58,813 bases of DNA, taken from the NCBI GenBank assembly GCA_947649125.1, contig CANSQL010000008.1:1-58813 (forward strand), in the 5' to 3' direction. How positions within the stretch are numbered: the first letter of the stretch is position 1; every line of letters starts with the position of its first letter. The DNA comes from an uncultured Erysipelotrichaceae bacterium (GTDB lineage: Bacteria; Bacillota_I; Bacilli_A; Erysipelotrichales; Erysipelotrichaceae). The notes under the pieces were generated by a model. The model saw only the letters and a program-made list of their open reading frames with translations, was not told the origin of the DNA and searched no databases. Shown in pieces: positions 50,712-58,719 of this stretch. The position numbers were made by a program, and so were the translations under genes.

Positions 50712-51257
50712 ATGAAAATACTTTATTACAACACAAGCTATGAAAGCTTTCAGCAAATTTCCGCACTATTGAATACAATAAATATTCCTGTCGTATGGAT
50801 TCAACAAAACCAAGGTTATCTGACGATTGATGATTTAATTAAACAAGCACCAATTATAGCTGAGCCTTGTACTCTGCCGGATATTTCAGTGATGATTTTC
50901 CATGAAATGAGCGATGAACAAATCAACGAGGTAATAGCATTATTGAAGCAGCATGGAATTACGATACCGTATAAATGTATCGTAACAAAGCATAATCAAA
51001 CATGGCGCTTCGTTAAGCTATTTCAAGAGCTGATAGAGGAACATGAATATTTCAACACTTATGAGCAGTTAAAGCAATGTATTGCACAGGTCAGCGAGTT
51101 ACATGAGGCTGACTACTGTGAGGATTCATGGAAGCAATATGAGACAGCTTTTATGATTGGTTACTTCCTGCTTCAAAAACAAAGCTCTGTCGACGAGTTA
51201 AAAAGTGCTGTTCAAGCAATCAACACTGCGAAAGCAAAGCTATCTAAAAAAGGATAG
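50712..51257 (+). CDS. DUF3783-like protein with FIVAR-like C-terminus
   Basis: 181 residues, no signal or membrane segment. The N-terminal part (KILYYNTSYE...MIFHEMSDEQINEVIALLKQHGITIPYKCIVTKHNQTW) fits the DUF3783 pattern seen in Firmicutes. Residues about 134-178 (YCEDSWKQYETAFMIGYF, then SSVDELKSAVQAINTAKAKL) follow the FIVAR motif spacing of the surface protein at 54307, which is odd for a cytosolic protein. RBS AGGTGAT, 8 nt after the permease gene. A terminator follows, so it is the last gene of the sdp-ABC operon. Function unknown. Confidence 0.7.
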   Translation: MKILYYNTSYESFQQISALLNTINIPVVWIQQNQGYLTIDDLIKQAPIIAEPCTLPDISVMIFHEMSDEQINEVIALLKQHGITIPYKCIVTKHNQTWRFVKLFQELIEEHEYFNTYEQLKQCIAQVSELHEADYCEDSWKQYETAFMIGYFLLQKQSSVDELKSAVQAINTAKAKLSKKG

Positions 51258-51525: not shown

Positions 51526-53651
51526 TGACTCACCTGCTTTCCTGAGGCATATGTGCCTTTCGGGCGCATCAGCATATATCCACTGCCTAATAAAGCCAAG
51601 CAAGCGAGCGCCGTCATCAGTGTAAAGCTACTGCCGTCTATCCAAATCCAAATCTGATAAGTGATGAAAGAAACCGTATATGCCAATATACATTGATAAA
51701 GAATTGCGAATATTGTCCACTTACGATGATTCATTTCACGCTTGATTGCGCCGATGGCCGCAAAGCACGGAGCACACAATAAATTGAATATCATAAAGGA
51801 ATACGCAGATGCCATGGTAAAGCTCGCGGCTAAGCTTCCCCATATTTCAGCACCATCTTCGGCAACCTCTCCATACCCATATAAAATCCCAAAGGTCGAT
51901 ACGACATTTTCCTTTGCGACTAATCCGGATATTGCCGCAACTGCACTTTCCCAGTTCCCCCAGCCAAGCGGTACAAACAGAAAGGACAACGCAGAGCCAA
52001 GTGCAGCTAAAAAGCTTTGATCCAATTCATCGCTCTCCAACATTTGTATGCCGCCGTTCACGATACCGAAGCTTGATAAAAGCCATATCAAAATCGTAGA
52101 TAACAAAATAATCGAGCCGGCCTTTTTAATAAAGCTGAAGCCACGCTCCCACATACTGCGAAGTACATTATCAAGCTTAGGCATATGATAAGTGGGAAGC
52201 TCCATTAAAAACGGTGCGGAATCGCCTGCAAACAAGTTTGTTTTCTTTAACATGATACCGGAAAGAATCACAGCCGCAATACCGATAAAATATGCGGAGG
52301 GGCTTACCCACCAAGCATCTTGGAATAAGGCTCCCGCAATGAGCGCAATAATCGGAAGCTTTGCGCTGCACGGAATAAAAGAAGTCGTTATTACCGTCAT
52401 TCTGCGATCCGCTTCATTCTCAATCGTTCTGCTTGCCATGATGCCCGGAACACTGCAACCGGTACCGATCAGCATCGGAATAAAGGACTTACCCGATAAA
52501 CCGAATTTACGAAAGATACGATCTAAAATAAAGGCAATTCGTGCCATATAACCGATTTCCTCTAACAACGCTAAAAAGAGAAATAAGACAAGCATTTGCG
52601 GTACAAAGCCAAGCACAGCGCCGACACCGGCCACAATACCGTCAATAATTAATGACATCAGCCAATCGGCACAATGTACGGAAACCAAAAGACTCTCAAT
52701 AAAGGGCGGAATTAGTTCCGTAAACAATACATCATTGACCCAATCAGTAGCTATCCCACCGATTCCTGTCACTGCCATATAATAAATAAAGGTCATAATT
52801 GCCGCAAATATCGGAAGTGCCAACAACCGATTTGTCACAATACGATCGATTCGATCTGATACACTGATATCATTGTTTGATTTATGATAAGTTTTGGATA
52901 AAACATCAGTGATATATTCATATCGAGCACCTGTGATGATACTTTCACAATCATCATCAAAAGCTATTTCCAATCGTTCTCTGATTTCATTGATACGCTC
53001 ATATTGTTTTTCATTCAATATCTGCTGATTAATCAAATCTTCTTCATTTTCCAAATATTTGATTGCATACCAATTTTGTTCAATCGGCTTATAACAATCA
53101 CTGATCACATCCTTCACCTGTGCAATCGAAGTCATAATATTACCCTGATAAATATTAGAATAAGCAGGAAATGATGATTTATCAAGCTGTAATACCTCAC
53201 TGATCAGCTGATCCAACCCTTCATTTTTTAATGCGGATACTTTTACAATCGGACACTCCAGAAGTTTTGATAAGCTTTCAACATTGATTTGATTTTCCTT
53301 TAATAAATCGCTCATATTCAGTGCTATCACGATCGGTATTCCGATTTCCCTAAGCTGTGTCGTTAGATAAAGGCTTCGCTCTAAATTCGTAGCGTCAAGC
53401 AGATTAATAACAACATCAGGACGCTCATTGATTAAAAAATCACGTGCCGCAAGCTCATCTAATGAATACGGTGAAAGAGAATAAATACCGGGCAGATCGA
53501 TAATCTGAATGTCCTTGTTTGACTTTAAAAAGCCTGTCTTTTTCTCCACTGTTACTCCCGGCCAATTTCCTACCGATTGATTACTGCCTGTTAAGGCATT
53601 AAACATTGTTGTTTTTCCGCAATTCGGATTTCCCGCTAACGCAATTCTCAT
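51510..53651 (-). CDS. feoB: Ferrous iron transporter B
   Basis: 713-residue Fe(II) importer. The N-terminal G domain shows G1 GNPNCGKTT (residues 7-15), G2 GVTVEKK, G3 DLPG, G4 NMSD and G5 SALKNEG. The helical GDI-like spacer runs to about residue 270. The membrane part contains two Gate modules, with GCSVPGIMASRT and CSAKLPIIALIAGA as the pore Cys motifs. RBS AGGAGGT; a metalloregulator-type palindrome lies at 53665-53680 just upstream. Confidence 0.97.
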   Translation of the reverse strand: MRIALAGNPNCGKTTMFNALTGSNQSVGNWPGVTVEKKTGFLKSNKDIQIIDLPGIYSLSPYSLDELAARDFLINERPDVVINLLDATNLERSLYLTTQLREIGIPIVIALNMSDLLKENQINVESLSKLLECPIVKVSALKNEGLDQLISEVLQLDKSSFPAYSNIYQGNIMTSIAQVKDVISDCYKPIEQNWYAIKYLENEEDLINQQILNEKQYERINEIRERLEIAFDDDCESIITGARYEYITDVLSKTYHKSNNDISVSDRIDRIVTNRLLALPIFAAIMTFIYYMAVTGIGGIATDWVNDVLFTELIPPFIESLLVSVHCADWLMSLIIDGIVAGVGAVLGFVPQMLVLFLFLALLEEIGYMARIAFILDRIFRKFGLSGKSFIPMLIGTGCSVPGIMASRTIENEADRRMTVITTSFIPCSAKLPIIALIAGALFQDAWWVSPSAYFIGIAAVILSGIMLKKTNLFAGDSAPFLMELPTYHMPKLDNVLRSMWERGFSFIKKAGSIILLSTILIWLLSSFGIVNGGIQMLESDELDQSFLAALGSALSFLFVPLGWGNWESAVAAISGLVAKENVVSTFGILYGYGEVAEDGAEIWGSLAASFTMASAYSFMIFNLLCAPCFAAIGAIKREMNHRKWTIFAILYQCILAYTVSFITYQIWIWIDGSSFTLMTALACLALLGSGYMLMRPKGTYASGKQVSQCQPS

Positions 53652-53664
53652 GATTTACCTCCTT

Positions 53665-53680
53665 GTTAGCTTATGCTAAC
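53665..53680 (-). promoter_or_regulatory. Metalloregulator-type palindrome before feoB
   Basis: GTTAGCTTATGCTAAC, near-perfect palindrome immediately upstream of the feoB RBS, of the same type as the two sites at the feoA promoter. Confidence 0.8.
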
Positions 53681-53700
53681 TTAATTGCTAAAAAAATTTG

Positions 53701-53925
53701 TTATATCACTTCAACATTAATAACGGCAGCATCTTTTTTTCGTATTGATAACTCATATCCGCGCACATGCAGCTCCACCGGATCACCTAAAGGGGCTGCC
53801 TTTTTCATCACTACGACAGCATTTCTCGTAAATCCCATTTCCATTAGTCTTCTTTTGGCTGCTGCTGCGGCTGAAATACTTGTAACCCTAGCGCTTTGAC
53901 CCCGTTTCAATTCATTTAACTTCAT
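53701..53925 (-). CDS. feoA: FeoA domain protein (second copy)
   Basis: 74-residue SH3-like protein (MKLNELKRGQSARVTSI, KRRLMEMGFTRNAVV, DPVELHVRGYELSIRKKDAAVI). FeoA modulates FeoB in the cytoplasm. It overlaps the first feoA stop by 4 nt (ATGA), indicating coupling; feoB follows after 49 nt. Confidence 0.93.
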   Translation of the reverse strand: MKLNELKRGQSARVTSISAAAAAKRRLMEMGFTRNAVVVMKKAAPLGDPVELHVRGYELSIRKKDAAVINVEVI

Positions 53926-54149
53926 TCTGATACCTCCTGTTTTACTATGATACGATTACCTAACGATTTATCTAAAGCAATGCGTGTATCCTTGATCATT
54001 GCGATCAAGTTGCCGTTGATCTCACTCACAAGTGCACATTCCGCACCTGATACAAATCCCAAACTCGCTAAGCGTAAACGGATTTCATCACGTCCGATGA
54101 TTTTATATACTGTAAGCTTTGTTCCCTTAGCTGCCATTGAAAGTGTCAT
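53922..54149 (-). CDS. feoA: FeoA domain protein (first copy)
   Basis: 75 residues from MTLSMAAKGTKLTVYKI; AGGAGG is 6 nt upstream, so the longer frame to 54176 is rejected. FeoA-like SH3 fold (IIGRDEIRLRLASLGFVSGAECALVSEINGNLIAMIKDTRIALDKSLGNRIIV). It heads the feo operon and is only distantly similar to the second FeoA. Confidence 0.93.
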   Translation of the reverse strand: MTLSMAAKGTKLTVYKIIGRDEIRLRLASLGFVSGAECALVSEINGNLIAMIKDTRIALDKSLGNRIIVKQEVSE

Positions 54150-54168
54150 AGATAACCTCCTCACCGCA

Positions 54169-54224
54169 GTTAGCATGCGCTAACTCAACACAAATATATT
54201 AGCATACGCTAACTTTTTTGTCAA
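54169..54224 (-). promoter_or_regulatory. feoA promoter with two metalloregulator palindromes
   Basis: Minus-strand -35 TTGACA (54219-54224), 17-nt spacer, -10 TAATAT (54196-54201). One palindrome, GTTAGCGTATGCTAA (54199-54213), lies between -35 and -10. A second, perfect one, GTTAGCGCATGCTAAC (54169-54184), lies downstream near the RBS. The pattern fits a DtxR/MntR-type or Fur-like iron repressor. Confidence 0.85.
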
Positions 54225-54243
54225 CACTTTTTTATTTGCAAAA

Positions 54244-54276
54244 GAAAAAGACAGAGAACTCGAAGGCTCTCTGCCT
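54244..54276 (-). terminator. Terminator of the large glycosidase gene
   Basis: Minus-strand GGCAGAGAG...TTCTCTGTC stem followed by TTTTTCTTTT, just after the stop. Confidence 0.75.
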
Positions 54277-54306: not shown

Positions 54307-57300
54307 TTAGTCTGATTCTTTTCTCAGCAAGCTGTTTGATTTCTTCATCGTAAACAGTAGCAGCATACCAAGCATAACATTTAAGAATCCGCTCATATCA
54401 ACCGTAGAACTTGTAGTTGCAGTATTTACAATCGGATTGTCGCTTGATACGATTGCATAATAGGAATTGTGATTAGTAGTAAACGTAATATAACCGTTTT
54501 CTACTTTAGACGGAACTGTTGTTGCCTTTCCGTCATCGGTAATATATACAATGCCTAAATAACGCTTAGCCAATAATTCATCATCAAGCTTAATCTTAAT
54601 TGTAAAGCTTCCGCTCGGAACATATTGTGCTCCCTTACGCAGCATATAAATATCATATATTTTTTCAATATTATATTTAGATACATCATGTTTATTTTTA
54701 ATCTTTTGAATGATTTCAGCTTTCGCTTCCTTAGCTAGCGCTTCTACAATCAACTGAACATCCTCATGAAATTTACCGATAATCGTTACTTCATTCTTAT
54801 TGTTATGGATTTGATTCACGTAACCCGGTTTCATGGGTTCATTAGGTTTGATTGGATTATCCGGCAAAGGATTAGGCTTCGGATTAGGATCGGTAGAATC
54901 AACCTTTACAAGCTCTTTTATCGCATTCTCTAATACATGGCGCGCAGCATCTACATCTTCCTGTGTTGCATCTGCATCTGCTTCTACTTCCTTTGCAGCC
55001 TTCAATGCCGCTTCCAACACTTTCCAGCTTTCTGCCGTATACTGATTCTCTGCTAATGCTTCCGCTTTTTTGATATCTGCAGTTAAATCACCCTTATATA
55101 CTTCATCCGGTAGCGATGGGTCCACCTTTTCCAAGCCATCTACAGCCGCCTCTAACGCTTCATATGCTTCATCAACCTTATCTTGAGTCGCATCCGCATC
55201 TGCTTCTACAGCCTTTGCAACCTTCAGTGCTGCTGCCAATTCCTTCCAGCTGTCCGCAGTATAGTGGTCCTCTGTTAAGGCTTCTGCCTTATGAATTGCG
55301 GCAGTTAAATCACCCTTATATACTTCATCCGGAAGGGATGGATCCACCTTTTTCAAGCCGGCTACAGCTTCCTCTAACGCTTCATATGCTTCATCAACCT
55401 TATCTTGAGTCGCATCCATATCTGCTTCTACATCCTTTGCGACCTTCAGTGCTGCTGCCAATTCCTTCCAGCTATCCGCAGTATAGTGATCCTCTGTTAA
55501 AGCTTCTGCCTTATGAATTGAAGCAATCAATCTATCCTTATCTACTTTAACAGCCTTGACTAATGCTTCACGTGCCGCCTTCAATGAGGTGTATGCTTCA
55601 TTAACCTCATCCTGTGTTGCGTCCACATCATCGTTTACCGTTTGTGCAGCAGTTAAAGCACTTTCCAAATCTGCCCAGCTGTCTGCTGTATAGTCTTTTT
55701 CCGTCAATTTCTCTGCCTTTTCAATCTCTGCTTCCAAAAGGCTCTTATCAACTACAACCTGTGTTGCGGCATATTCTCTGGCAAGTTCTGTCACCTTATC
55801 ATACATTCTGTCCGTTTCTGAATGTACGAGCATTCTTTGAACCTCATCGGCATAGGTTGCACTTCCGTTATGAGTACCTTTAGTAGGTAGCTTCATTGAT
55901 TTTGTCAGTGTTGTTATTTCCGTTTTATACTCATCGCTTTGTTCCATCAAATACTTCGCCTTCGCAACATCACGCATACCCTGCTTCAACATTTCATATC
56001 TCGGAGTGCTGTAGAAGGAAGCGTTATAATCAGCATCTATTTGATCACGTTCTACCGGATACACATACCATCCGTCACCCGGCTCCCAATAACGATAGCT
56101 GGCGTCACCATGCATATCATATACATAATTATCCCATGCCCAGCGCATAAAGCCATCGGTTCCTAAGGTCATTGTATACCAAATAGTCCAATAATTATCA
56201 CCCGGATCACTAATCATAAAGTTTGTAGGATAGTCACCTGTACAGGAATAGAAGGTAGTAGTTAAGCCTAACTCTCTTCTGTGATCTGACAACTGATTCA
56301 TCTGCGTCTGACTCGTTACATTACCTAGGTTGATTGAAATATCATCAACTCGATCGGTTAATGAATACTGATCCGGAGCCGCATAGTTTAATGCTGATGA
56401 AATTTTAAAGCTGTTGCCCTCAGAATCCGTTACAGATTCAATGGTGTTGACTGCAGCCGTTAAATCATCTAATTCACGTTCATCCATTGAAATATAGGTG
56501 ATATCAAACCAGCCTTTTTCTTTAGAGTGTTTCATGAAATCTGTTAAGAATGCAGACCACGCCGCATCACCGGCTGTCGTACCCGCTTTTAATACTTCAG
56601 TTTTATAAGCAGATGTAGCCTCATCATAATACTTGATTTGATTTCCCCAAGGAACGATACTGAAGCATTTAATTTTACCGATACCGTTTACCGGATCAAT
56701 AACTCCGGAATCGATCATGAAATTAATCCATTTATCATACCAGTCATAATTGAATTCCCATGTACCGTCACTTTTCTTTGTCCATTTAATCATAGACGGA
56801 TCATTATAATAAGACTGGTGACCCCAAGCTTCCTCCACGATGTTCGCAACAATATCATGACCGCCGTTATCCGCATATTCCTTTACGGACTCACGTAACA
56901 GATTAAAGTGCTGTTCAGTGAAATAGAAAGCATCATTAGAATCATTTGAAATACCGCCACTCGGAGTAGAGCCTAAGCCTAAATAATAATTCGCAACCGC
57001 AAACGGATGTTGCCAAATCTGTAATTCCGTCTTTTCGTTTTCCGGCTGAACAAGATTCAAAACTTCGATTTCATATGTTAATTCAATCGGATTCGCAAGT
57101 TCATCTGCGGTAACGGTAATTTTTCCCGTATAGTTACCCGGCACTGTTGCTTGAGGAACATTCATACTTACCCATGCGAAATTTGCGGTATTCTTTGCGG
57201 CATCATGCGCACCGCCCTTATGAATCACATCAGGGAAATCTAATACGGTTCCTGCCAAGTTTCTTCCATCGTTCGCTTTGACATTTTTCAGCCATTTAAT

Positions 57301-58719
57301 ATCTATATTATCAGCAGCAATTTTATTGCCGTTATTATCGGTAAAATCAGAAGCTGTAATATTGATATTATGCACATTGGCTTTTGCTAAAATATTAAGC
57401 TTTGAATTTAAGATGTCGCCCTTCCAAGCAACACCGCTCCAATTTCTAACGATTTCAGCTGCTAACAGATCATCAAAATCACGTTGCGTCTCCAACAGCT
57501 TTTCGTTGCCTACGGAAACATTTAAGTCTTTAATAGCAGGATCAACATTGACCGTAACAGAAACAGAAATAGCAGTATCTTTTACCGTCGCAGTAACCTG
57601 CGTTTGTGACTTCGTTTTACTGATTGCGGTAATATTTCCGTCAGCATCGATAGTAGCCACGGAAGAATCAGCACTGGAGTAAACAATTTCAGGTTCTTCA
57701 TTAAACCAAGGCTCATAAGAAATTGCCGGGAATTCAGCCGTTTGATTGATTCCTAAATCAATATCATCTGTATCCGCAAATATTCTTGTAATCGGCATGT
57801 CTTCATGATAAACCTTTAAATAATCTATCTGAAGGGCAGAGCCTGATTTCAGTTCAACCTTTAATGTATGCTCTTTGTTATCTAATTCAGAGGATTCAAA
57901 CAGCATTTGCTGATGCTGGGCACTGCCTGTAGTTGTCGCATCTGCAGTACCTACCTCTGCACCGTCTACACTGATTTTATACACACCGTGTCCGCTGTTC
58001 TTAGAACCGATAAGCTGAAATTTAGTTCCTACGAAGCGCATTTCAAAATAGCCGTCACTTGTGTAGTGCTCATATCCGTCATGAAAATATTCAGGATAAT
58101 AAGAATTGCCTCCGCCCCATGTTCCGGTATATTTGATCTTAAATAACTCATCGGTTTCGGTTGCCATCACATCCTCAATTACAGTAAAGCCGGTATCAGA
58201 GTTGCCGAAAACCTTTGCATAAACGAATTGTACACCATAGGTAGTACCGCTGCCTGTAGAAGCAGAATTTCGTTTATCTAATACAGTTACCTTCGCAGTA
58301 TGATCTCCCGGGCTCAATTCGGCACTCTCATACAACTTCACATTAGTTTGCGTTGTGCTCGCATAAGCATCATGCTCTGTCGCCGTTCCGCCATCAATCG
58401 CAACACTGAACATTGCATGATCGGCAGCCTTTTTCCCGTATAATTCCAGTTTTGTACCATTAAATGTTATATCAATGGTAGCGCCTGCCGAATTACTCCA
58501 ATGCTCTGTTACATCAGCAGAACTTCCGCCTGTCGTAGGCCAATAGTCCCAACCGCCGTTATTACTGTTACCGCTGGAATACACAAAGCGTGCATCATTA
58601 TCATCAATGATTTCGCCTTCATCAGCTGCTTTAATTTCTATGACTTGATTCATCGTAATCACTGAAACAAAGCAGCATGCAGCTAACAACAGTTTAGTAA
58701 ATTTTTGTATCGCTTTCAT
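54307..58719 (-). CDS. Secreted GH123/DUF4091-like glycosidase with FIVAR repeats
   Basis: 1470 residues. Signal peptide 1-31 (cleavage near IKA-AD). Two related beta-sandwich modules at about 35-170 and 175-307 share the F-x-GTK-hydrophobic-GxK pattern and may bind glycans. A Big_2 module spans about 308-392. A beta-domain leads into a TIM-barrel-like catalytic part (about 395-960). YISMDERE has adjacent Asp746-Glu747, the acid pair expected for GH123 substrate-assisted N-acetylgalactosaminidases; DUF4091 enzymes are related. Four FIVAR repeats (989-1272), a Pro-rich linker, a C-terminal beta-domain and a membrane segment with basic tail follow. No LPXTG is visible. RBS AGGAGGA. Likely cell-surface action on host glycans. 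Confidence 0.88.
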   Translation of the reverse strand: MKAIQKFTKLLLAACCFVSVITMNQVIEIKAADEGEIIDDNDARFVYSSGNSNNGGWDYWPTTGGSSADVTEHWSNSAGATIDITFNGTKLELYGKKAADHAMFSVAIDGGTATEHDAYASTTQTNVKLYESAELSPGDHTAKVTVLDKRNSASTGSGTTYGVQFVYAKVFGNSDTGFTVIEDVMATETDELFKIKYTGTWGGGNSYYPEYFHDGYEHYTSDGYFEMRFVGTKFQLIGSKNSGHGVYKISVDGAEVGTADATTTGSAQHQQMLFESSELDNKEHTLKVELKSGSALQIDYLKVYHEDMPITRIFADTDDIDLGINQTAEFPAISYEPWFNEEPEIVYSSADSSVATIDADGNITAISKTKSQTQVTATVKDTAISVSVTVNVDPAIKDLNVSVGNEKLLETQRDFDDLLAAEIVRNWSGVAWKGDILNSKLNILAKANVHNINITASDFTDNNGNKIAADNIDIKWLKNVKANDGRNLAGTVLDFPDVIHKGGAHDAAKNTANFAWVSMNVPQATVPGNYTGKITVTADELANPIELTYEIEVLNLVQPENEKTELQIWQHPFAVANYYLGLGSTPSGGISNDSNDAFYFTEQHFNLLRESVKEYADNGGHDIVANIVEEAWGHQSYYNDPSMIKWTKKSDGTWEFNYDWYDKWINFMIDSGVIDPVNGIGKIKCFSIVPWGNQIKYYDEATSAYKTEVLKAGTTAGDAAWSAFLTDFMKHSKEKGWFDITYISMDERELDDLTAAVNTIESVTDSEGNSFKISSALNYAAPDQYSLTDRVDDISINLGNVTSQTQMNQLSDHRRELGLTTTFYSCTGDYPTNFMISDPGDNYWTIWYTMTLGTDGFMRWAWDNYVYDMHGDASYRYWEPGDGWYVYPVERDQIDADYNASFYSTPRYEMLKQGMRDVAKAKYLMEQSDEYKTEITTLTKSMKLPTKGTHNGSATYADEVQRMLVHSETDRMYDKVTELAREYAATQVVVDKSLLEAEIEKAEKLTEKDYTADSWADLESALTAAQTVNDDVDATQDEVNEAYTSLKAAREALVKAVKVDKDRLIASIHKAEALTEDHYTADSWKELAAALKVAKDVEADMDATQDKVDEAYEALEEAVAGLKKVDPSLPDEVYKGDLTAAIHKAEALTEDHYTADSWKELAAALKVAKAVEADADATQDKVDEAYEALEAAVDGLEKVDPSLPDEVYKGDLTADIKKAEALAENQYTAESWKVLEAALKAAKEVEADADATQEDVDAARHVLENAIKELVKVDSTDPNPKPNPLPDNPIKPNEPMKPGYVNQIHNNKNEVTIIGKFHEDVQLIVEALAKEAKAEIIQKIKNKHDVSKYNIEKIYDIYMLRKGAQYVPSGSFTIKIKLDDELLAKRYLGIVYITDDGKATTVPSKVENGYITFTTNHNSYYAIVSSDNPIVNTATTSSTVDMSGFLNVMLGMLLLFTMKKSNSLLRKESD
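55090..55533 (-). repeat. Two 222-bp direct repeats within the FIVAR region
   Basis: Two near-identical 222-bp units (74 residues, each with YTADSWKELAAALKVAK and VDEAYEALE) lie head to tail, flanked by more diverged first and fourth copies. The phase is visible from the repeated block at 55081 and 55303. Recent in-frame expansion is likely. Confidence 0.85.

Follow-up and report, generated by a model that had tools for sequence, protein, structure and literature searches.

Near one end of contig CANSQL010000008.1 (assembly GCA_947649125.1, from an uncultured Erysipelotrichaceae bacterium), all 58,813 nucleotides of which were analysed and are termed here 'the window' (labelled C8 among the 93 contigs of its 2.4-Mb genome), lies an open reading frame that encodes a large, probably surface-displayed glycosidase. 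That reading frame had been delimited, with no strand given, in an initial description drawn from the nucleotide sequence (the 'sequence-only reading'); it is present on the minus strand, running from 58719 to 54307 as 1470 codons with an ATG start, and a Shine-Dalgarno-like GGAGG lies a few bases 5' of that ATG. From N to C terminus the protein comprises a signal peptide, two beta-sandwich modules, a weakly matched Big_2 domain, the N-terminal and catalytic domains of a GH123 enzyme, four FIVAR repeats, a ZU5/GAIN-like domain of 130 residues, a hydrophobic segment and a basic tail, as follows (residue numbers refer to the protein).

54307..58719, minus strand: complete coding sequence, 1470 amino acids (translation of the open reading frame)
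58627..58719, minus strand: putative signal peptide at residues 1-31 (judged by eye from a basic start, a hydrophobic core and an A-x-A-like end)
58195..58632, minus strand: N-terminal module 1, a CE2_N/CBM35-like beta-sandwich, residues 30-175 (Pfam PF17996 and predicted fold)
57784..58194, minus strand: N-terminal module 2, a repeat of module 1, residues 176-312 (sequence identity to module 1; the fold comparisons test module 2 little)
57550..57690, minus strand: Big_2-like immunoglobulin domain, residues 344-390 (Pfam, 1 bit below the cut-off)
57109..57447, minus strand: GH123 N-terminal domain PF22680, residues 425-537 (Pfam, E 1.9e-20)
55951..56928, minus strand: GH123 catalytic barrel PF13320, residues 598-923 (Pfam and alignment with 5fqe)
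56479..56484, minus strand: catalytic Asp746-Glu747 (alignment with 5fqe; mechanism from passages of PMC11087588)
55561..55749, minus strand: FIVAR 1, residues 991-1053 (Pfam profile)
55354..55542, minus strand: FIVAR 2, residues 1060-1122 (Pfam profile)
55132..55317, minus strand: FIVAR 3, residues 1135-1196 (Pfam profile)
54910..55095, minus strand: FIVAR 4, residues 1209-1270 (Pfam profile)
54439..54834, minus strand: ZU5/GAIN-like domain, residues 1296-1427 (predicted model, Foldseek and VIA)
54463..54471, minus strand: tripeptide H1417-N1418-S1419, which lies between that domain's last two strands (member alignment and model; in the register of the eukaryotic HF/S, SF/S and HL/S-T sites)
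54418..54432, minus strand: variant sorting pentapeptide I1430-V-N-T-A1434 (alignment of the tails of paralogs and relatives)
54346..54396, minus strand: hydrophobic segment, residues 1442-1458, then the basic tail KKSNSLLRKESD (by eye)

The nearest homologs of the protein were found in Bacterium c-19, in Erysipelotrichales A81 and in an uncultured Erysipelotrichaceae bin, with the best segment 90-93% identical. The isolates c-19 and A81 come from mouse gut, and the bacterium of the window, taken to be a mouse-gut bacterium as well, has a large surface enzyme that very probably clips N-acetylgalactosamine (GalNAc) off host glycans.

The GH123 unit and its accessory modules

The sequence-only reading had proposed a GH123-like glycosidase with an Asp746-Glu747 pair, duplicated modules in front and four FIVAR repeats behind, and each of these points was borne out, the FIVARs numbering exactly four. 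The catalytic barrel matched PF13320 at E 6.7e-61 (206.9 bits, where the cut-off is 23.1), and the solved structure of CpNga123 from Clostridium perfringens (5fqe) aligned with residues 399-985 at E 5e-166, with Asp746-Glu747 (within SMDERE) opposite the catalytic Asp-Glu pair of that enzyme. In addition, W569, W632, Q635, W691 and W878 correspond to W206, W253, Q256, W306 and W482 of BvGH123, so that all five residues compared are kept; this correspondence was counted by hand on the 5fqe alignment, and the substrate-binding residues of BvGH123, like the catalytic mechanism, are those described in passages of PMC11087588. Membership in GH123 is therefore supported by every sequence feature examined (barrel profile, Asp-Glu pair and subsite residues), and both a chance match and a better fit to some other family were ruled out by comparisons with Pfam, NCBIfam and solved structures. 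The NCBIfam models for LnbX, HypBA2 and ZmpB scored far below their cut-offs, with their best stretches inside the FIVAR region.

From these computed matches, the GH123 unit would be expected to remove terminal beta-GalNAc by substrate-assisted catalysis, with Asp746 placing the acetamido group and Glu747 serving as the acid/base. GalNAc of host mucin or of glycolipid (glycosphingolipid) is a plausible target, as the earlier reading had suggested. That the unit instead acts mostly on beta-linked N-acetylglucosamine, or on GalNAc polymers that are not of host origin, appears improbable: beta-N-acetylhexosaminidases do occur among relatives outside the classic GH123 family (according to passages of PMC11087588), but the alignment with CpNga123, which is a beta-N-acetylgalactosaminidase, runs from end to end, and the GH123 subsite residues are retained.

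The duplication of the front modules was recovered as a match of residues ~30-175 to ~176-312 (31% identity over 93 residues, E 3e-11), with Pfam CE2_N found in two stretches. The predicted fold of module 1 most resembled 3nqh, a domain of BT_2959 (Z 15.9, root-mean-square deviation 2.0 over 121 residues), followed by the CE2 structure 2waa (Z 13.0) and the CBM35 structure 2w47 (Z 11.4); both modules probably bind glycans. The four FIVAR repeats, which together scored 95.8 bits with Pfam, would form a stalk. The matches for GH123, for the module repeat and for the FIVARs were all far above the level expected by chance.

A second GH123 enzyme is encoded in the same genome, on contig C17 (L067:4457-8368, minus strand); it is ~30% identical to the window protein, carries the same C-terminal domain and ends in an IVDTAT tail. 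A TAG triplet within that match proved to be its stop codon.

The C-terminal cassette and sorting signal

The sequence-only reading had described a hydrophobic segment and basic tail with no literal LPXTG, and IVNTATTSS at the position of a sorting signal, and that description is accurate, with a Pro preceding the Ile. Its further conclusion, that the protein lacks a sortase motif, does not hold, and the non-standard anchor that it suggested has become less likely: in an alignment of the paralogs, PIVNTATT, the following helix and the basic end take the form of a variant sorting signal. The comparison of C termini across the genome that it had called for uncovered an end cassette common to six proteins, which argues against a non-standard anchor. 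All six proteins of this genome that have the closest form of the ZU5/GAIN-like domain carry PIV[ND]T[AG], and their other domains are GH123 (two proteins), GH31, GH20, GH89/NAGLU and GH141-like; more distant forms of the domain are present in further proteins. The earlier interpretation thus stands in part, with the GH123 assignment upheld by family profile and active-site residues, and the proposed anchor weakened by the evidence of aligned paralog tails and of sortases.

When 39 unique tails were chosen by the last strand of the ZU5/GAIN-like domain, and not by the tail itself, every one of them (counted by eye) displayed, ahead of the hydrophobic segment, a Thr with Ala (23) or Gly (16) directly after it, and the window protein has all three parts of a C-terminal signal: the conserved Thr site, the hydrophobic segment and the basic tail. 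Orthologs that lack the ZU5/GAIN-like domain end in LVDTG (L028), AQTGD (L029), PNTGD (L030) and PQTGD (L031).

The window's genome encodes two sortases, as do five of the other six genomes examined in the genus (6/7 in total), while one was found in the 66%-complete genome G001. The sortase on contig C48 belongs to class B (TIGR03064, 182.4 bits against a cut-off of 153.75). For the sortase on contig C7, the top-scoring model was NF058671, 'class D, LPxTATN-specific' (89 bits, where the cut-off is 140), and the nearest solved chain was 2ln7 from Bacillus anthracis. In that species LPNTA is the substrate motif of the class D enzyme SrtC (passages of PMC3208642 and PMC4498605), and NSKTA, which has TA and no Pro, is listed as a SrtB signal (a passage of PMC3208642). 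NTAT of the window tail agrees with LPxTAT of NF058671. The best reading is anchoring by a sortase through a variant motif. One sortase, most likely the class D-like enzyme on C7, would cut P-I-V-N-T|A-T between Thr and Ala and link the protein to the wall.

Such an anchor is more probable than one of a new kind. The protein might not be a sortase substrate at all, being held by a C-terminal membrane anchor or by another route; the pentapeptide contains neither Pro nor Gly, and the window tail was not among the matches of the Gram_pos_anchor profile in a search of its own genome. This alternative is unlikely in view of the Thr and Ala/Gly conserved in every tail, the near-canonical motifs of homologs, and the retention of both sortases in the genus. 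The Gram_pos_anchor search is itself uninformative, as it gave matches in 13/14 control genomes at the loose threshold that was used.

Two observations concern other cassette proteins. The GH141-like protein (L068:3815-6337, minus strand, on contig C50 of the window's genome) is divided by an in-frame stop into pieces of 475 and 364 residues, and at L069:4010-14548 (plus strand) adjoining GH89 and DUF218 surface proteins have almost identical C-terminal domains of the HFS type.

The earlier description did not include the ~130-residue domain that separates the FIVARs from the tail, and neither Pfam nor NCBIfam has a name of its own for it. In the predicted model, 110/186 residues have a predicted local distance difference test score of at least 90, and most of the domain scores above that value. 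Ankyrin ZU5 chains filled the top seven places in Foldseek (probability 1.00, E from 4e-4 to 1e-2), and VIA gave Z 8-9 for ankyrin ZU5, for the FIINDs of NLRP1 and CARD8, for the GAIN domain of CD97 and for two axonemal entries. Across 14 members, H133 and S135 of the model (H1417 and S1419 of the protein) are among the residues that never vary, and the two lie between the last two strands.

Several results weigh against this reading of the C terminus. GH66-type beta-domains follow next in VIA at Z 7.6, so that the evidence for a ZU5/GAIN fold is moderate; profile searches of the Protein Data Bank sequences with profiles A2 and A5 found no ZU5/GAIN chain and returned ribosomal uL23 and others only; and Pfam ZU5, GPS and FIIND gave no match at E up to 10 in the 14 members. 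At the anchor, the pentapeptide has Val in the place of Pro and Ala in the place of Gly, its use by a sortase being presumed, and the C7 sortase falls below the class D profile cut-off (81.9 of 165 bits), although class D models score best. A FIIND match was seen in one of ten relatives, at E 0.09 and below the cut-off.

The shared cassette, the two sortase genes and the predicted fold, all obtained by computation, are nevertheless best accommodated by a secreted, wall-displayed GH123 exo-beta-N-acetylgalactosaminidase with a FIVAR stalk, a ZU5/GAIN-like domain and a variant signal cut by a sortase, a reading to which we assign a probability of roughly 0.78. From this we infer wall linkage, the sortase involved and a role for the ZU5/GAIN-like domain, whose look-alikes in inflammasome proteins and in adhesion receptors of animals cut themselves; this domain may govern how tightly the cell retains the enzyme.

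The H-x-S site of the ZU5/GAIN-like domain

Autoproteolysis takes place at HF/S in PIDD and at SF/S in CARD8 and NLRP1 (passages of PMC3210808), at HL/T or S in the GAIN domains of adhesion GPCRs (G-protein-coupled receptors; a passage of PMC11697300), and between F968 and S969 in rat NLRP1 (a passage of PMC8081665). In VIA, residue 144 of the model is paired as an end point with residue 978 of rat NLRP1 (7crw), which sets S135 on that cleavage-site Ser. Residues 540/541 of CD97 are paired with 144/145 of the model (9mqr, 8ikj), which fits the GPS Ser if S438 of isoform 2 is shifted to 531 by the difference in isoform length. By their end points, the candidate nucleophile S1419 is in register in 7crw, 9mqr and 8ikj, and not in 7jn7, where 145 pairs with residue 316 of CARD8 and the same arithmetic does not fit S297.

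Profile A4 detected the domain in 40/392 genomes drawn from the phylum, and profile A5 in 139/391 genomes of a class-level draw around an Oscillospiraceae genome. Seven of the 52 non-redundant rows available for A5 were dropped for lack of a standard H/S-x-S site or for poor alignment (the second copies of L094 and L084, with L098, L172, L091, L046 and L101), and a row for the window protein was included, so that this profile leans towards Ser-bearing domains. The 129 rows of set A and the 121 rows of set B contain 82 and 117 unique domains, respectively, to which the statistics given here refer, and in each set a single row has no residue at the Ser column; set B, from fresh genomes, was sampled from the matches listed, with 80 regions fetched besides the loci given and many further matches outside. 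In set A, 67/82 domains end within 100 residues of the protein end, and a helix with a basic tail follows in all 67 of these; the corresponding number for set B is 42/117, with 65 others running off the fetched stretch.

At the loci of the phylum draw, the site can be read in 84 of 85 unique domains, as HNS (36), HFS (19), HLS (11), SFS (6) and twelve others once each. The 117 domains of set B gave HFS (71), SFS (15), HLS (10), GFS (7) and 14 others. Relatives with HFS, HLS or SFS are spread across Bacilli and Clostridia. In L093, L094 and L084 the domain occurs in tandem, and the upstream copy is without the His and Ser (TNG, ING, SDG).

A working autoprotease would cut between Asn1418 and Ser1419, leaving the enzyme held non-covalently through the last strand (from SYYAIV on, linked by sortase) and able to be shed. 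The position of the His and Ser between the last two strands of the model, where the GPS and FIIND sites lie, is consistent with this, as are the register on NLRP1 S969 and, with the isoform shift, on the CD97 GPS Ser, and the dominance of HFS, HNS, HLS and SFS over the two sets together. Co-variation of the two residues also argues for cleavage. In the phylum-draw set, domains without His at -2 have His at -27 in 7/10 cases, as against 10/67 of those with His at -2, and a spacing of exactly -27 is found in CARD8 (H270/S297) and NLRP1 (H942/S969 and H1186/S1213), according to passages of PMC3210808 and PMC8081665. A prediction fixed beforehand with a tolerance of one residue (-26 to -28) was then run on set B, and such a His accompanied the loss of His at -2 in 18/29 domains, versus 7/82 with His at -2 (p 3e-8); the difference was 14/23 versus 6/52 under a 60% identity filter and 13/20 versus 5/37 under a 40% filter, and was weaker for exactly -27 (7/29 versus 4/82, p 0.007). 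Over both sets, His at -2 was lost in 12/12 domains that had lost the Ser, compared with 40/187 otherwise. These p-values ignore relatedness beyond identity filtering, and a tree built without the trait columns (19 and 23 changes in the best tree) gave only 1-2 independent pairs on supported branches and no significance. A catalytic His/Ser pair would be expected to co-vary in this way, which a spacer would hardly explain.

Against cleavage in the window protein itself stands the residue at P1, where ZU5/GAIN autoproteases have a buried Phe or Leu and the window has Asn1418. Phe or Leu is found there in 110/111 Ser-bearing domains of set B; Asn occupies the position in 35/76 Ser-bearing domains of set A and in 0/111 of set B, and by loci occurs only in the window's genus and genome G012. 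The CARD8 substitution F296H abolishes or severely impairs cleavage (a passage of PMC3210808), and the CARD8 end point and the few independent pairs on the tree also count against cutting. Self-cleavage of the window protein is accordingly a tentative reading, held at somewhat less than even odds.

The H-x-S could instead be structural, or the remnant of an ancestral catalysis that is dead in the HNS group, with the domain serving only as a spacer or stalk in front of the wall, and we place this just short of an even chance. The Asn at P1, the decay seen in TNG, ING and RNG copies, the existence of ankyrin ZU5 domains that do not cleave, and the orthologs L028-L031 that do without the domain all point in this direction; the His swap between -2 and -27 that recurs in held-out genomes does not. 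None of the 35 HNS copies in set A has lost either the His or the Ser, which speaks for a working protease and against a spacer, and which, together with Asn at P1, implies that the HNS group either still cuts in another way or is freshly dead.

A broader proposal, put forward as speculative and on balance doubtful, is that a very common autoprotease of the GAIN/FIIND kind, placed before the sortase signals of gut Bacillota, cuts enzymes and adhesins from their anchors, leaving them held by one strand and releasable by force or denaturant, much like the N-terminal and C-terminal fragments of adhesion GPCRs, with HN|S as the form in the window's genus and Asn perhaps participating. If the domain does cleave itself, many surface enzymes of gut bacteria would be tethered non-covalently, which would change how their release and wall proteomics are read, and would bear on where the GAIN/FIIND autoproteases of animals may come from.

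Surroundings and comparison with known systems

Upstream, the gene is cut off from its neighbours by the contig end; at L024 the upstream genes are, in our reading, ATP-binding-cassette-transporter-like. The genes downstream, which we take to be feoA/feoB-like, are unrelated, and palindromes of the form TTAGC-N4-GCTAA precede them (window 53650-54260), probably operators of a metal-responsive regulator. At 50712-51257 (plus strand) the window encodes a protein of 181 residues, with no evident signal peptide, in which DUF3783 is linked with a FIVAR-like tail (below the cut-off, E 7.6e-4), FIVAR being otherwise a surface module.

As a GH123 enzyme, the window protein is ordinary. It shares with CpNga123 (5fqe) and BvGH123 (5l7r) the catalytic and N-terminal GH123 domains, the Asp-Glu pair and the subsite Trp and Gln residues, and differs in being far larger, through two carbohydrate-binding-like modules, four FIVARs, the ZU5/GAIN-like domain and the anchor. 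The end cassette is not ordinary, given the frequency of its domain in both genome draws and the lack of a Pfam model for it.

The tail resembles BasH and BasI (LPNTA, class D) and BasL (NSKTA, SrtB) of B. anthracis in its Thr-Ala at the predicted cut, its hydrophobic stretch and its basic end, and the window's genome likewise encodes one sortase that is class D-like and another of class B; the differences are the Val at the place of Pro and a sortase that scores below the class D cut-off. Among the A5 members, 27/46 match NF038253, the IgA-binding beta antigen BAC of group B Streptococcus (best E 4.7e-9), with the window copy at its positions 948-1033. NF038253 is a whole-protein model, the scores are far below its cut-off, and the domain is not named ZU5/GAIN there; going by these sequence matches, the domain may also occur in surface proteins of streptococci. 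The domain resembles the ZU5/FIIND/GAIN superfamily, moderately, in its predicted fold, and has in common with it a site between the last two strands, the tripeptides of its relatives and the -2/-27 His swap, and it differs in having HNS in the window copy, no significant sequence match, an extracellular location and an adjoining sorting signal.

Literature searches within one library of papers, judged partly by title, found no account of a ZU5/GAIN-type domain beside a sortase signal, and the ZU5 passages found in searches pairing ZU5 with glycoside hydrolases concern apoptosis and bacterial conflict systems. The idea of ZU5 autoproteases on bacterial surfaces is already known: Zhang et al. 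(2012), in a passage of PMC3482391, predicted that related ZU5 domains in large bacterial surface proteins with glycohydrolases may process those proteins, at a C-terminal CxH thiol site. The present protein shares with theirs the setting, a ZU5 domain in a large surface protein with a glycohydrolase. Theirs, as that passage describes them, have a CxH thiol and are placed mostly N-terminally in toxins, whereas here the site is of the Ser type, is C-terminal and adjoins a sortase-type tail; what is new is this Ser-type site with its His swap, its place before sortase signals, and the HNS form.

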